DNA from: Gammaproteobacteria bacterium | GTDB taxonomy: Bacteria > Pseudomonadota > Gammaproteobacteria > SZUA-152 | NCBI GenBank assembly: GCA_011371455.1 | Contig: DRQN01000144.1 | Span: 1 to 32,768 of the forward strand | Direction: 5' to 3' | DNA: 32,768 bases | Shown here: piece after piece, positions 2,568-16,574 of the stretch | Position numbering within the stretch: position 1 is the first letter of the stretch | How the letters are laid out: each line of letters begins with the position of its first letter | The notes under the pieces: generated by a model | Databases searched by the model: none | What the model was told of the DNA's origin: nothing | The model's input: the letters and a program-made list of their open reading frames with translations, nothing else | Program-made: the position numbers and the translations under genes

Positions 2568-2589
2568 ACCTGAACCCACGGATTCAGGT
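2568..2589. repeat. Isolated half-site of the ACCTGAA(c/t)CC...GGATTCAGGT repeat family
   Basis: acctgaacccacggattcaggt: 7-bp stem hairpin, same terminal sequence as the element at 8914-9076; 22 nt upstream of pepP. Confidence 0.6.
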
Positions 2590-4125: not shown

Positions 4126-5361
4126 ATGACAACAACGGACTACGACATCCTCATCATCGGCGGCGGCATGGTCGGCGCCAGCCTGGCCATCGCCCTGCGC
4201 GGCCAGCCGCTGCGCGTCGGCATGGTGGAGGCGGCGCCGTTCCGCGCCGCGGCCCAGCCCGGCTACGACGACCGCGCCATCGCCCTGTCGCAGGGCAGCC
4301 GGCGCATCTTCGACGCCATGGGCGTGTGGCAGGGCCTCGCCCCCGCCGCCACGCCCATCGAGCGCATCCACGTCTCCGACCGGGGCCACTTCGGCGTCAC
4401 CCGCCTGGACGCGCGTGAGGAGGGCGTGGAGGCCCTGGGCTACGTGATCACCGGCCGCGCCCTCGGCCAGGGACTGGTGGCGAAGGCCGGCGCTCTCGAC
4501 GGTCTCGACCTGATCAGCCCCGCCAGTCTGTGCGAACTCAAGCTGGGCGAGGACCACGCCACCGCCGTCATCGAACGCGACGGCAGCCGCGAGCCCTTCA
4601 CCGCCTCGCTGGTGATCGCCGCCGACGGTGGCGACTCCGCCGTGCGCCGCCTGCTCGACATCGCGGTGACGGAAAAGGACTACCACCAGACCGCCATCAT
4701 CGCCAACGTCACCCCGCAGCGGCCGCACCGGAACGTCGCCTACGAACGCTTCACCGCCCACGGCCCGCTGGCCCTGCTGCCCCTGGATGCCGACGGCAAC
4801 GACAACCGCTGCTCGCTGGTATGGACCCATGACCCGGCGCGCAGCGAGGAACTGCTGGGGCTGGACGACGCCGACTTCCTGCAGGAACTGCAAGACGCCT
4901 TCGGCTGGCGCTTGGGGCGACTACTCAAGGTTGGACGGCGCGCCGGCTACCCGCTGCGGCTGATCCGCGCACGCGAACAGATCCGCCCGCGCCTGGCGCT
5001 GATCGGCAATGCCGCCCACACCCTGCACCCCATTGCCGGGCAGGGCTTCAATCTCGGCCTGCGCGACGTGGCGGCGCTGGCGCAGGTACTGGCCAATGCC
5101 CGCGAGGCCGGGCGCGACCCGGGCGAGCTGGCGGTGCTGGAGAACTACGCCAACTGGCGCACGAGTGATCACCGCAAGGTCATCGGCTTCACCAATGCCC
5201 TGGTGCACACCTTCTCCAACCGCTTCCCGCCACTGAGCCTGGCGCGCAACCTGGGCCTGGTCGCCACCGACCTGCTGCCGCCGCTCAAGCACGCCCTGGC
5301 GCGCAACGCCATGGGCCTCGGTGGCCGGCTGCCGCGGCTGGCTCGGGGATTGCCGCTGTGA
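4126..5361 (+). CDS. ubiH: 2-octaprenyl-6-methoxyphenyl hydroxylase, UbiH/COQ6 family FAD monooxygenase
   Basis: GxGxxG FAD motif DILIIGGGMVGASLA; RPRLALIGNAAHTLHPIAGQGFNLGLRD; between pepP and a second UbiH/UbiI paralogue. Confidence 0.92.
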   Translation: MTTTDYDILIIGGGMVGASLAIALRGQPLRVGMVEAAPFRAAAQPGYDDRAIALSQGSRRIFDAMGVWQGLAPAATPIERIHVSDRGHFGVTRLDAREEGVEALGYVITGRALGQGLVAKAGALDGLDLISPASLCELKLGEDHATAVIERDGSREPFTASLVIAADGGDSAVRRLLDIAVTEKDYHQTAIIANVTPQRPHRNVAYERFTAHGPLALLPLDADGNDNRCSLVWTHDPARSEELLGLDDADFLQELQDAFGWRLGRLLKVGRRAGYPLRLIRAREQIRPRLALIGNAAHTLHPIAGQGFNLGLRDVAALAQVLANAREAGRDPGELAVLENYANWRTSDHRKVIGFTNALVHTFSNRFPPLSLARNLGLVATDLLPPLKHALARNAMGLGGRLPRLARGLPL

Positions 5362-5472
5362 AGTCTATTTGCCACAGAGACACAGGGTTCACACTTGTGA
5401 CACCGCTCCGCAGTGTCACATACCCTGTGGCGCTCAGCGCCACTCCAGCCATGACGGATGAAACCAGCGCCA

Positions 5473-5562
5473 GCGTTACACCGCTGAGCGGTGTAATAAG
5501 AGAAAATATCTTTTTCTTTGCGTCCTCTGCGTTGAATCGGCGGGGTTCGGTCGTGAAAGCAA
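5473..5562 (+). repeat. Direct repeat copy A flanking the OLD-like gene
   Basis: gcgttacaccgctgagcggtgtaataagagaaaatatctttttctttgcgtcctctgcg-ttgaatcggcgg...tcgtgaaagcaa; aligns with 7563-7669 apart from a 17-nt indel and point changes. Confidence 0.85.
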
Positions 5563-5618
5563 AACCATTTACCATAAAGATACGGTGTACACAAAGGAAA
5601 ACATCTCTTTCACACCGC

Positions 5619-5645
5619 CATTCCCGCGAAAGCGGAAATCCATAA
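5619..5645. repeat. CATTCCCGCGAAAGCGG-type dispersed palindromic repeat
   Basis: cattcccgcgaaagcggaaatcc; its spurious translation ends in HSRESGNP, a recognisable by-product of this repeat. Confidence 0.6.
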
Positions 5646-5736
5646 ACTACGACATCTACGCTAACGCACAGGCAAGGAAGTACAGCAACACGCCCAGCGA
5701 GATGCAATGAAAAAGCTTTCCCAACCCCATCTTCGT

Positions 5737-5742
5737 TATAAT
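5737..5742 (+). promoter_or_regulatory. Candidate -10 element (TATAAT) for the OLD-like gene
   Basis: Exact TATAAT 41 nt upstream of ATG 5784 in AT-rich DNA; no good -35 match. Confidence 0.35.
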
Positions 5743-5783
5743 TCATGCAATGATTGGGGCGCTTCCCTCTTGGATAACCAGGC

Positions 5784-7496
5784 ATGCTTACACATATCAC
5801 TATCCGTAACTTCAAAGGGTTCGACGAGGTTTCATTTGAGCTAGGTGACCGCGTCGTACTCATTGGGCCAAACAATTCAGGCAAGACTTCGTCGCTTCAA
5901 GCGGTGGCGTTATGGGATATTGGTCTTAAACGCTGGATTGAGAAACGAGGAACAGGAGCCACCCCAAAAAAACGATCGGGAGTTGCCATTAACCGTCGCG
6001 ACCTCATCACGGTGCCTGTTCCTAGCGCCAATCTCCTCTGGAGAAATTTACATATGCGGGAATCCGTAAGGGGAAAGGGAACGCAGAACATCCGCATTGA
6101 AATCATCGTTGAAGGAGTCTCCGCTGGAAAGGCCTGGACTTGCGGGCTTGAATTTGACTTTGCCAACGAAGAGTCATTTTACTGTCGACCTTTGCGTAGA
6201 GAAGAGGATGGCGAATATGAAACACTGGCAATCCCAGAATTGGCTTCTGAGGTGCGCGTCGCTTACCTTCCGCCCATGTCGGGATTAACGGCCACAGAGA
6301 CACGTCTGGATTCCGGAGCTATTAATGTCCGGCTTGGTGAAGGGAGAACTGCCGAAGTGCTTCGAAACCTGTGCTATCAAATCGCTGAAAGCGAAAACGG
6401 CCCTCAGCGCTGGCCCCTCCTGGTCGAACAAATCAAAGATTTTTTCGGCATTGAGTTACAGGAGCCCAGGTATATCGCTGAAAGGGGTGAAATAACACTT
6501 GCCTATAAACACCGTGGCGTACAACTGGATATTTCATCTTCAGGCCGTGGTTTACAGCAAACTTTATTACTGCTTGCTCACATGATGGTTAACCCAAAAT
6601 CAGTCCTTCTCATGGATGAGCCCGACGCACACCTGGAAATTCTACGCCAGCGCCAGATCTACCAATTGCTCACTGATACCGCTAGAGAGAATGGCAACCA
6701 GATTATTGCTGCAAGCCACTCGGAAGTTATTCTTAATGAAGCGGCAGACCGGGACATGGTTATCGCCTTTGTCGGCAAGCCACATCGAATTGATGACCGG
6801 GGCTCTCAGGTCTACAAATCATTAAAAGAAATAGGATATGACCAGTATTACCAGGCCGAGGAAACCGGCTGGGTGCTTTACCTGGAAGGCTCCACCGATC
6901 TTGCAATATTACGCAGTCTTGCTGAGACGCTAGACCATCCCGCCAAAAAATGCCTTGAGCGGCCATTTGTTCATTATGTGCTCAATCAGCCGAAAAAAGC
7001 ACAAGAGCATTTTTATGGCATTAGGGAAGCAAAACCAGACCTCGTTGGAATTGCAGTTTTTGACCGGCTTGATAGCGATCTTCCTTCTGATCCTAACCTC
7101 GTGCAACACATGTGGAAACAACGTGAACTTGAAAATTATCTTTGCAACAAAGAAGCAATCCTGGAATTGACCAAGACTATAGCTAACAGGAATGCCGAAG
7201 GGCCTTTGTTTGCTGCCCCCTGGATTGACACAATGACCACTATAATCGCTGAACTTGAGTCAGCTCTTGAAATGTTAAACAAGCCTTCGCCCTGGGGAAA
7301 GGATATCAAGGTAACAGATGATTTTCTGGACCCGCTCTTTGAGAAATTTTTTGAAAAAATCGGACTTCCAAACCTTATGCGAAAAACGGATTATCACGAG
7401 CTTGCAAAATTCGTTGCTCCCGAGAGTCTCGACCCTGAGGTGCTGGAGGTACTAGACGCCATTCAGAAAGTGTCAGAACGAGCAACCCCCCAATAA
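5784..7496 (+). CDS. OLD-like AAA/ABC ATPase with C-terminal TOPRIM-like domain (putative nuclease, candidate defence gene)
   Basis: Walker A GPNNSGKTSS; signature SSSGRGLQQTLLLLAHM; Walker B SVLLMDEPDAHLE; TOPRIM-like VLYLEGSTDLAIL and VFDRLDSD followed by W.QRELENYL. Visibly AT-richer than neighbours. Confidence 0.85.
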   Translation: MLTHITIRNFKGFDEVSFELGDRVVLIGPNNSGKTSSLQAVALWDIGLKRWIEKRGTGATPKKRSGVAINRRDLITVPVPSANLLWRNLHMRESVRGKGTQNIRIEIIVEGVSAGKAWTCGLEFDFANEESFYCRPLRREEDGEYETLAIPELASEVRVAYLPPMSGLTATETRLDSGAINVRLGEGRTAEVLRNLCYQIAESENGPQRWPLLVEQIKDFFGIELQEPRYIAERGEITLAYKHRGVQLDISSSGRGLQQTLLLLAHMMVNPKSVLLMDEPDAHLEILRQRQIYQLLTDTARENGNQIIAASHSEVILNEAADRDMVIAFVGKPHRIDDRGSQVYKSLKEIGYDQYYQAEETGWVLYLEGSTDLAILRSLAETLDHPAKKCLERPFVHYVLNQPKKAQEHFYGIREAKPDLVGIAVFDRLDSDLPSDPNLVQHMWKQRELENYLCNKEAILELTKTIANRNAEGPLFAAPWIDTMTTIIAELESALEMLNKPSPWGKDIKVTDDFLDPLFEKFFEKIGLPNLMRKTDYHELAKFVAPESLDPEVLEVLDAIQKVSERATPQ

Positions 7497-7562
7497 ATAA
7501 ATTCGGCCATCGTTTCTCGCTGTGTTTATGGGAGGGGTTGCCGTTGTGAATATGCATTATTT

Positions 7563-7669
7563 GCGCTACACCGCTGAGCGGTTTAGCGAGAGAAAATGTC
7601 TTTTTCTTTGCGTCCTCTGCGTCTTTGCGCCCTTTGCGTTGAATTGGCGGGGGCCAGTCGTGAAAGCAA
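7563..7669 (+). repeat. Direct repeat copy B flanking the OLD-like gene
   Basis: gcgctacaccgctgagcggtttagcgagagaaaatgtctttttctttgcgtcctctgcgtctttgcgccctttgcgttgaattggcgg...tcgtgaaagcaa; matches copy A with a 17-nt insertion. Confidence 0.85.
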
Positions 7670-7690
7670 TACACCTTCCGGAGGCACTGC

Positions 7691-8893
7691 ATGACAACTA
7701 CCGACTACGACATCGTCATCATCGGCGGCGGCATGGTCGGCGCCAGCCTGGCCTGTGCGCTGGCCGACAGCAGCCTGTCCATCGCCGTCGTCGAGGGCCG
7801 TGAACCGCCCACCGAGTGGCCGGAGGACAGCTTCGACATCCGCGTCAGCGCCATCACACGCGCCTCGGAAAACCTGTTCCGCCGCCTGGGCACCTGGGAT
7901 AAAATGACCACGCTGCGCGTGCAGCCCTATGAGGCCATGGAGGTATGGGACGCCACTGGCTCCGGCCACATCCACTTCGACGCCGCCGAGCTGGGCGAAC
8001 CCAACCTCGGCCACATCATCGAAAACCGCGTCATCACCCGCGCCCTGCTCAACCGCCTGCGCAGCCACGACAACATCGACTACCGCTCCCCGGCCAGCCC
8101 CAAGCGCCTGTTGCTGCGCAGCGGCCAGGCCCAACTGCAACTGGACGACGGCAAGCTGCTCAACGCCAGGCTGGTGGTTGGCGCCGACGGCGCCCACTCC
8201 TGGCTGCGCCAGCAGGCCGGCATCGAGGTGCAGGAACGCCACTATCGGCAAACCGCCGTGGTTACCACGGTGCAGACCGGGCAATACCACCAGGACACCG
8301 CCTGGCAGCGCTTCCTGCCCACGGGGCCACTGGCCTTCCTGCCCCTGCCCGAGGGCCGCAGCGCCATCGTCTGGAGCACCAGCGCGGAGGAGGCCGAGCG
8401 CCTGCTGGCGCTGGACGCGGCCGATTTCATGGCCGAACTGGGCGAGGCCTTCGAACACCGTCTCGGCGCGGTCACCGGCGTCGGCCCACGCGGCGCCTTT
8501 CCGCTCAAGGGCCGCCATGCCAGGGAGTACGTCAAACCACACCTGGCCCTGGTGGGCGATGCCGCCCACACCATCCACCCGCTGGCCGGCCAAGGTGTCA
8601 ACCTGGGCCTGGCCGATGTCGAGGAGCTAGCCTCCGTGGTGCTGGCGGCGCACCGCGCCCAGCGCCCCGTTGGCAGCTTCAAGACCCTGCGCCGCTACGA
8701 GCGCGCGCGGCGCGGCGACAACCTGCTGATGCTGGACGCCATGGGCGCCTTCAAGGCCCTGTTCAGCAACGATACCCCGGTCCTGCGCGAGCTGCGCAAC
8801 CTGGGCCTCGATCTGACCGACCACGCCGGCCCGCTGAAAAATCTCATCGTTGCCCGGGCCATGGGCCTGGGCTCCCTGCCAGGCAAGCCCTGA
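7691..8893 (+). CDS. ubiI: UbiH/UbiF/VisC (UbiI) family FAD-dependent ubiquinone hydroxylase
   Basis: MTTTDYDIVIIGGGMVGASLACAL nearly identical to the UbiH N-terminus; KPHLALVGDAAHTIHPLAGQGVNLGLAD. Confidence 0.88.
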   Translation: MTTTDYDIVIIGGGMVGASLACALADSSLSIAVVEGREPPTEWPEDSFDIRVSAITRASENLFRRLGTWDKMTTLRVQPYEAMEVWDATGSGHIHFDAAELGEPNLGHIIENRVITRALLNRLRSHDNIDYRSPASPKRLLLRSGQAQLQLDDGKLLNARLVVGADGAHSWLRQQAGIEVQERHYRQTAVVTTVQTGQYHQDTAWQRFLPTGPLAFLPLPEGRSAIVWSTSAEEAERLLALDAADFMAELGEAFEHRLGAVTGVGPRGAFPLKGRHAREYVKPHLALVGDAAHTIHPLAGQGVNLGLADVEELASVVLAAHRAQRPVGSFKTLRRYERARRGDNLLMLDAMGAFKALFSNDTPVLRELRNLGLDLTDHAGPLKNLIVARAMGLGSLPGKP

Positions 8894-8913: not shown

Positions 8914-9076
8914 ACCTGAATCCGTGGGTTCGGGGCGGATGAAGTACGCAACTGTTTGATTCGTATCGCGTAATGAAAAATCGAGGGAATAGCGGGGATT
9001 GTTGCCGAGATTTTTCATATAGCGAGGCGGATCAATGAGTTGTGTCATTCGCCGTCATGAACCCACGGATTCAGGT
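8914..9076. repeat. MITE-like element, 163 bp, perfect 18-bp terminal inverted repeats
   Basis: acctgaatccgtgggttc (8914-8931) / gaacccacggattcaggt (9059-9076); core tatagcgaggcggatcaatgagttgtgtcattcgccgtcat shared with 16412-16520; internal inverted repeat atgaaaaatc/gatttttcat. Confidence 0.85.
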
Positions 9077-16297: not shown

Positions 16298-16574
16298 TCA
16301 CCACAGAAGCACGAAGTACACAGAGAAAAAATCAAAAGCAAATAACCGCCAAGGACGCCAAGACAACAATAGCCAAAACCTTGCGTTCCTTGGCGGCAAA
16401 ATTTGATGAGTGCCTGAATCCGTGAGTTTAGGGCGGATAAAGCATGCAACTGCTTGACCCATATAGCGAGACGGATCAATGAGTTGTGTCATTCGCCGTC
16501 ATAAACTCACGGATCCAGGTAAATATTTTAACGGGTTTTCCCTGTATCCCCGTGCCTCTGTGGTGAATGTTTTT
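16298..16574. repeat. Composite nested repeat: CACAGAG-type palindrome interrupted by other repeats
   Basis: Left half ttcaccacagaagcacgaagtacacagagaaaa (16298-), right half aaatattttaacgggttttccctgtatccccgtgcctctgtggtg (to about 16572) matches the right half of 15179-15242. Between them: inverted repeat ccgccaaggacgccaag/ccttgcgttccttggcgg (16347-16396) and the element at 16412-16520. Confidence 0.8.
16412..16520. repeat. Short (109 bp) copy of the MITE-like element
   Basis: gcctgaatccgtgagttta / taaactcacggatccaggt terminal inverted repeats; core catatagcgagacggatcaatgagttgtgtcattcgccgtcat shared with 8914-9076. Confidence 0.85.

Follow-up and report, generated by a model that had tools for sequence, protein, structure and literature searches.

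Among the OLD proteins, single-gene class 1 forms a recognised group (PMC10568477, PMC13261556) that includes P2 Old, Thermus scotoductus OLD (TsOLD, 6P74) and Escherichia coli YbjD/OldB. Each is encoded by one gene and joins an insertion-split N-terminal ABC ATPase to a C-terminal Toprim domain. Class 1 genes are described as isolated, and whether one OLD gene alone gives broad phage protection is listed as an open question (PMC10568477). In TsOLD the Toprim residues are E377, D381, D431, D433, S478 and E480 (PMC7049728). Related designs include the class 2 OLD/GajA proteins of Gabija, the class 3 OLD proteins of retrons, and PARIS, in which the ATPase and Toprim logic is carried by AriA and AriB or by a fused AriAB. 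A back-up effector role in BREX and related systems has also been reported or proposed for OLD-ABC units linked to Toprim nucleases (PMC12839542).

Here we describe an OLD-family gene in a 32,768-nt stretch of a gammaproteobacterial genome (contig DRQN01000144.1; hereafter the window). It shares the single-gene organisation and domain order of class 1, stands alone, and has TsOLD as its best sequence and structure match. Unlike class 1 proteins, it lacks the second acid of the Toprim DxD motif, its C-terminal domain best matches class 2 C-terminal regions, and its relatives often lie in defence operons. It resembles GajA in having a Toprim-type domain with a helical C-terminal part; Gabija was nevertheless ruled out, since the gene downstream is ubiI and not a UvrD/PcrA/Rep helicase gene. 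It also differs from class 3 OLD in that no reverse transcriptase gene is adjacent and no ncRNA was found, an Rfam search of the window giving no match. Similarity to PARIS is weak: padloc reports AriA, AriAB and weak AriB matches to what is one short protein, with no separate AriB. Like the BREX accessory effectors (PMC12839542), relatives of the gene adjoin brxC or lie between pglW and pglX, whereas the window copy lies outside any BREX locus.

An OLD-family gene between ubiH and ubiI

The gene begins with ATG and separates ubiH from ubiI, with pepP upstream (Table 1). Local GC content falls from about 0.70 to 0.44-0.51 across it, and its GC3 is 0.46 against 0.91 for ubiH and 0.89 for ubiI, bearing out the first-pass annotation, which had described an AT-richer gene splitting the two hydroxylase genes. 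That annotation had also given the gene its own TATAAT-like -10 element. The string is present (5747-5752), but a scan for sigma-70-like promoters found none where 2.9 were expected by chance, and the promoter itself is not upheld. Both immediate neighbours are ubi genes, and neither an adjoining defence gene nor a defence operon was seen beside the window copy.

Foreign composition, four empty junctions in congeners and relatives in other phyla together support horizontal acquisition of the gene. A plasmid- or phage-borne origin was rejected, since no phage record searched matched the protein and plasmid matches were 27% identical or less. Two IMG/VR contigs hold relatives, at 62% and 55% identity.

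Table 1. Coordinates of the features discussed, numbered from the first base of the window
Feature	Position	Strand	Remarks
ubiH, left neighbour	4126..5361	+	TIGR01984 above cut-off
Dispersed element, three hairpins	5394..5507	+	Fold z = -5.1; same element at same place in empty junction of G004
Left direct repeat	5473..5562	+	Aligns with right copy
OLD-family gene	5784..7496	+	570 aa; ABC-type ATPase ~1-330; Toprim-type domain and helical tail ~341-570
Walker A GPNNSGKT, residues 28-35	5865..5888	+	Invariant or nearly invariant in family alignment
ABC signature region SSSGRGLQQ	6534..6560	+	G254, R255, G256, Q258, Q259 invariant
Walker B VLLMDEPD (D278, E279)	6603..6626	+	D278, E279, P280, D281 invariant
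Toprim motif 1 E368-G-S-T-D372	6885..6899	+	E368, D372 invariant (20 rows); spacing of TsOLD E377/D381
Toprim motif 2 D427-R-L	7062..7070	+	D427 (first Asp of DxD) invariant; second Asp replaced
E448-x-E450-N451, possible second-metal ligands	7125..7136	+	E448, E450, N451 invariant
17-nt copy of ubiH 3' end GGGGTTGCCGTTGTGAA, probable recombination scar	7534..7550	+	17/17 against ubiH end of G006
Right direct repeat	7563..7669	+	Aligns with left copy
ubiI-like hydroxylase, right neighbour	7691..8893	+	TIGR01988 above cut-off

Domain architecture and active-site residues

The 570-aa protein combines an OLD-family ABC ATPase with a Toprim-type domain at its C terminus, an identity proposed in the first-pass annotation and supported by Pfam, profile and structure searches. 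Pfam assigned AAA_15 (3.9e-18), AAA_21 (1e-17) and an SMC_N ATPase match. Searched against the PDB, a 20-sequence profile built from the window protein and 19 relatives found TsOLD (6p74) as the best solved sequence (E 3e-12). Foldseek with the full-length model likewise placed 6p74 at the top, over 625 columns, with GajA and PtuA chains next. The pTM of that model is 0.53, so its domain packing is unreliable. Modelled alone, the C-terminal part reached pLDDT 92.7 and pTM 0.89, and its best four PDB matches in Foldseek were the C-terminal regions of the Burkholderia pseudomallei (BpOLD) and Xanthomonas campestris (XccOLD) proteins (probability 0.97-1.00, E 0.003-0.014). The Pfam Toprim models did not recognise this domain (best single-member E 0.067), and its profile gave no useful match among the sequences of solved structures.

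Conservation across the family is strong, with a mean column identity of 65%. In the 20-row alignment the Walker A, signature, Walker B and H-switch motifs of the ATPase are invariant or nearly so. Of the residues equivalent to the metal-binding acids of TsOLD, E368, D372, D427 and E450 are invariant, while the second acid of the DxD motif (the TsOLD D433 position) is replaced in 19 of 20 rows: residue 429 is L, I, V or P in these and D in the remaining one. E448, E450 and N451 could possibly serve as the ligands of OLD metal B. Because the second DxD acid is replaced and Pfam does not recognise a Toprim domain, the predicted nuclease may be altered or inactive.

Relatives and their gene neighbourhoods

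A scan of genome contigs found 23 loci with relatives, most of them matching along the full length at 52-85% identity. They come from metagenome-assembled genomes (MAGs) assigned to Gammaproteobacteria, Campylobacteraceae, Acidobacteria, Chloroflexi, Gemmatimonadota, Poribacteria, Planctomycetota and others, a breadth of phyla that fits horizontal spread, with the proviso that MAG contigs can be misbinned. The family is nonetheless rare, occurring in 11 of 369 genomes sampled across the class and 5 of 399 sampled across the phylum (E <= 1e-60; both counts include this genome).

Several neighbourhoods bear on function. At one locus (L089) the gene lies between type III mod and res, in the order mod, OLD-family gene, res, with gaps of a few bases; at another (L128) it lies between pglW and pglX of a BREX system, in that order, and at L092 it follows brxC by 33 bases. 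Three relatives are within Hma loci (L095, L098 and L133), and at L099 the gene follows hsdS and precedes an AlbA-type gene and hsdR. Because several relatives thus sit in methylation-based defence operons, a predicted phage-defence role is well supported by association, in keeping with the link between the OLD/Toprim family and defence drawn in the first-pass annotation. Many other relatives adjoin metabolic, mobile-element or unassigned genes, some with IS110, a DDE transposase or TraD nearby, and no partner gene is common to most of the loci.

The relatives at L101, L104, L106 and L127 are split by frameshifts or stops, to which assembly error may contribute. Since several relatives are broken in this way, decay of the gene appears to be common, and the remnant described below for one congener no special case. 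At L134 (contig G238:C120; 4150-5553 and 6737-8425), a PD-T4-4_A-like ATPase gene is found upstream of a distant relative (32% identity), and the next gene after that relative encodes an unassigned 946-aa protein that has no padloc match.

The ubiH-ubiI junction in congeners

Six congeners (G001-G006) were compared with this genome (G000). G003 carries an intact OLD-family gene in the ubiH-ubiI junction, with 85% amino acid identity, and G002 carries a 3' remnant there with a frameshift and internal stops. In the other four (G001, G004, G005 and G006) the junction is empty, spanning 104-250 bp; it is likewise empty in G009, from another genus of the same family. The flanks of the gene in G002 and G003 match one another and share with G000 nothing beyond about 17 bases.

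In a protein tree the G000 and G003 proteins are sisters (support 0.999). Between these genomes dS is 1.42 for the OLD-family gene and 0.48 and 0.49 for ubiH and ubiI, values that may not be comparable between GC-biased ubi genes and an AT-rich one. Between G002 and G003 the relation is reversed, with 0.19 for the OLD-family gene and 0.47 and 0.55 for its neighbours. Its dN is similar to that of ubiH and ubiI, and neither the G000 nor the G003 lineage shows a rise of its GC3 toward the host value. With a dS roughly threefold that of the genes beside it, the G000 copy does not appear to be a simple vertical orthologue of the G003 copy. Given this discordance between gene and neighbours, the likeliest history is that closely related alleles entered the one junction independently or were exchanged there between species.

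Direct repeats and intergenic elements

The direct repeats that the first-pass annotation had reported on either side of the gene, with their 17-nt indel, are present. They align in two blocks, 5473-5532 with 7563-7622 at 90% and 5515-5565 with 7622-7672 at 86%, and the indel is one additional copy of a 17-nt tandem unit, TCTTTGCGCCCTCTGCG (7605-7639). The view that they are members of a dispersed family applies only to their middle 45 nt, which has 61 matches genome-wide. The outer parts of the repeat, its head and tail, are shared by this pair and by none of the 28 other loci examined in the same genome. For this reason, two dispersed repeats inserted independently were rejected as an explanation.

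An element with three strong hairpins overlaps the left repeat and extends toward ubiH. Congener genomes have as many as 34 matches to it each; the searched genomes of other genera have none. An empty site carrying one repeat copy had been anticipated in relatives; the empty junction of G004 does hold this element, and the alignment runs past it to about 5605, but the stretch 5508-5557 is absent and the whole repeat is not found there. No direct repeats are present at the gene-bearing junctions of G003 and G002.

Ahead of the right repeat, and belonging to no dispersed repeat, lies a copy of the ubiH 3' end, whose alignment score was reached by 0 of 2000 shuffles though it is only 17 nt long. 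Because the repeat head and tail are shared only by this pair and a copy of the ubiH 3' end lies on the right, the gene looks to be bracketed by two diverged copies of the ubiH-ubiI junction. A crossover that duplicated the junction, or an import with the same effect, would explain the repeats and the scar in one step. Further, G006 loses its place as the nearest relative over the final 120 nt of ubiH and the opening 120 nt of ubiI, a weak hint of a mosaic tract at these ends that points in the same direction.

Proposed model and alternatives

We think it probable that this horizontally gained gene acts on its own as an OLD-family defence effector, and that it entered or was exchanged by recombination at the ubiH-ubiI junction. 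Cleavage of nucleic acid by the Toprim-type domain would be licensed once the ATPase domain senses an infection cue, leading either to destruction of phage DNA or to growth arrest of the infected cell. The gene would belong to a flexible pool that it entered horizontally; it resides in the ubiH-ubiI junction of some congeners, is missing from others and decays in one. In G000, its entry or an exchange of alleles would have left two diverged intergenic copies and the ubiH 3'-end scar around it.

The first-pass annotation had instead proposed that the gene arrived as compact cargo when two copies of a dispersed intergenic repeat recombined. The repeats on both sides, the dispersed core and the related element in the empty G004 junction would all suit this route, which we nevertheless judge improbable. 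The annotation had itself named a gene at this locus without repeats as evidence against it, and that is the arrangement in both G003 and G002; moreover, the restriction of head and tail to this pair makes it look like a local duplication, and the ubiH 3'-end copy by the right repeat does not belong to a dispersed repeat. A single ancestral insertion, passed down vertically within the genus with four losses, the G000 repeats being due to later, unrelated intergenic rearrangements, is less easily set aside and seems to us unlikely to a lesser degree. It suits the presence of the gene at one junction in three congeners, the sister relation of the G000 and G003 proteins and a dN like that of ubiH and ubiI. 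It does not readily account for a dS some three times that of the neighbours in one comparison and below theirs in the other, for a GC3 no nearer the host in either lineage, or for flanks that G003 and G002 do not share with G000 beyond about 17 bases.

As to function, the Toprim-type domain might act as in PARIS, cutting tRNA when phage proteins attack restriction or BREX, with the gene as a back-up effector. This is possible, if on balance doubtful. The fused AriAB model of padloc spans parts of the ATPase and Toprim regions, the C-terminal part only weakly; among 20 C-terminal domains, the AriAB model touches 7 and the AriB model 2 (best E 3.7e-4); and relatives occur in restriction-modification and BREX operons, where OLD-ABC/Toprim back-up effectors have been proposed (PMC12839542). 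The AriB sequence matches are weak, however, the structure search favours OLD C-terminal regions over AriB, and the window copy has no defence operon beside it. Rather unlikely, in our estimate, is a broader reading in which a distinct, strongly conserved OLD subfamily whose Toprim active site is altered would form an exchangeable effector, inserted in unrelated methylation-based systems (type I and III restriction-modification, BREX and Hma) and also solitary, that guards the modification state of the cell and is swapped between species at the ubiH-ubiI junction without a mobile element. A housekeeping ATPase of DNA repair or the cell cycle would fit the strong conservation, and such a role is reported for the archaeal OLD protein Cran1 (PMC12796447). 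Patchy presence even within the genus, the decayed copy in G002 and the defence-operon contexts of relatives make this very improbable.

The case is ordinary but instructive: a housekeeping operon that holds a solitary OLD-family defence gene, the kind of gene being already known. It extends the single-gene OLD proteins, which are poorly understood, by a well-conserved subfamily. The empty, full, decayed and duplicated junctions of the genus offer a natural series for studying how lone defence genes move without a transposase or integrase.

Another short repeat in the window

A 17-nt motif, GAACCCACGGATTCAGG, occurs in the window as three exact copies and one with 2 mismatches, against an expectation of 0.01: 2572-2588 (+), 8915-8931 (-), 9059-9075 (+) and 16413-16429 (-). 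Those at 8915 and 9059 lie just past ubiI as an inverted pair and resemble the ends of a small palindromic element.
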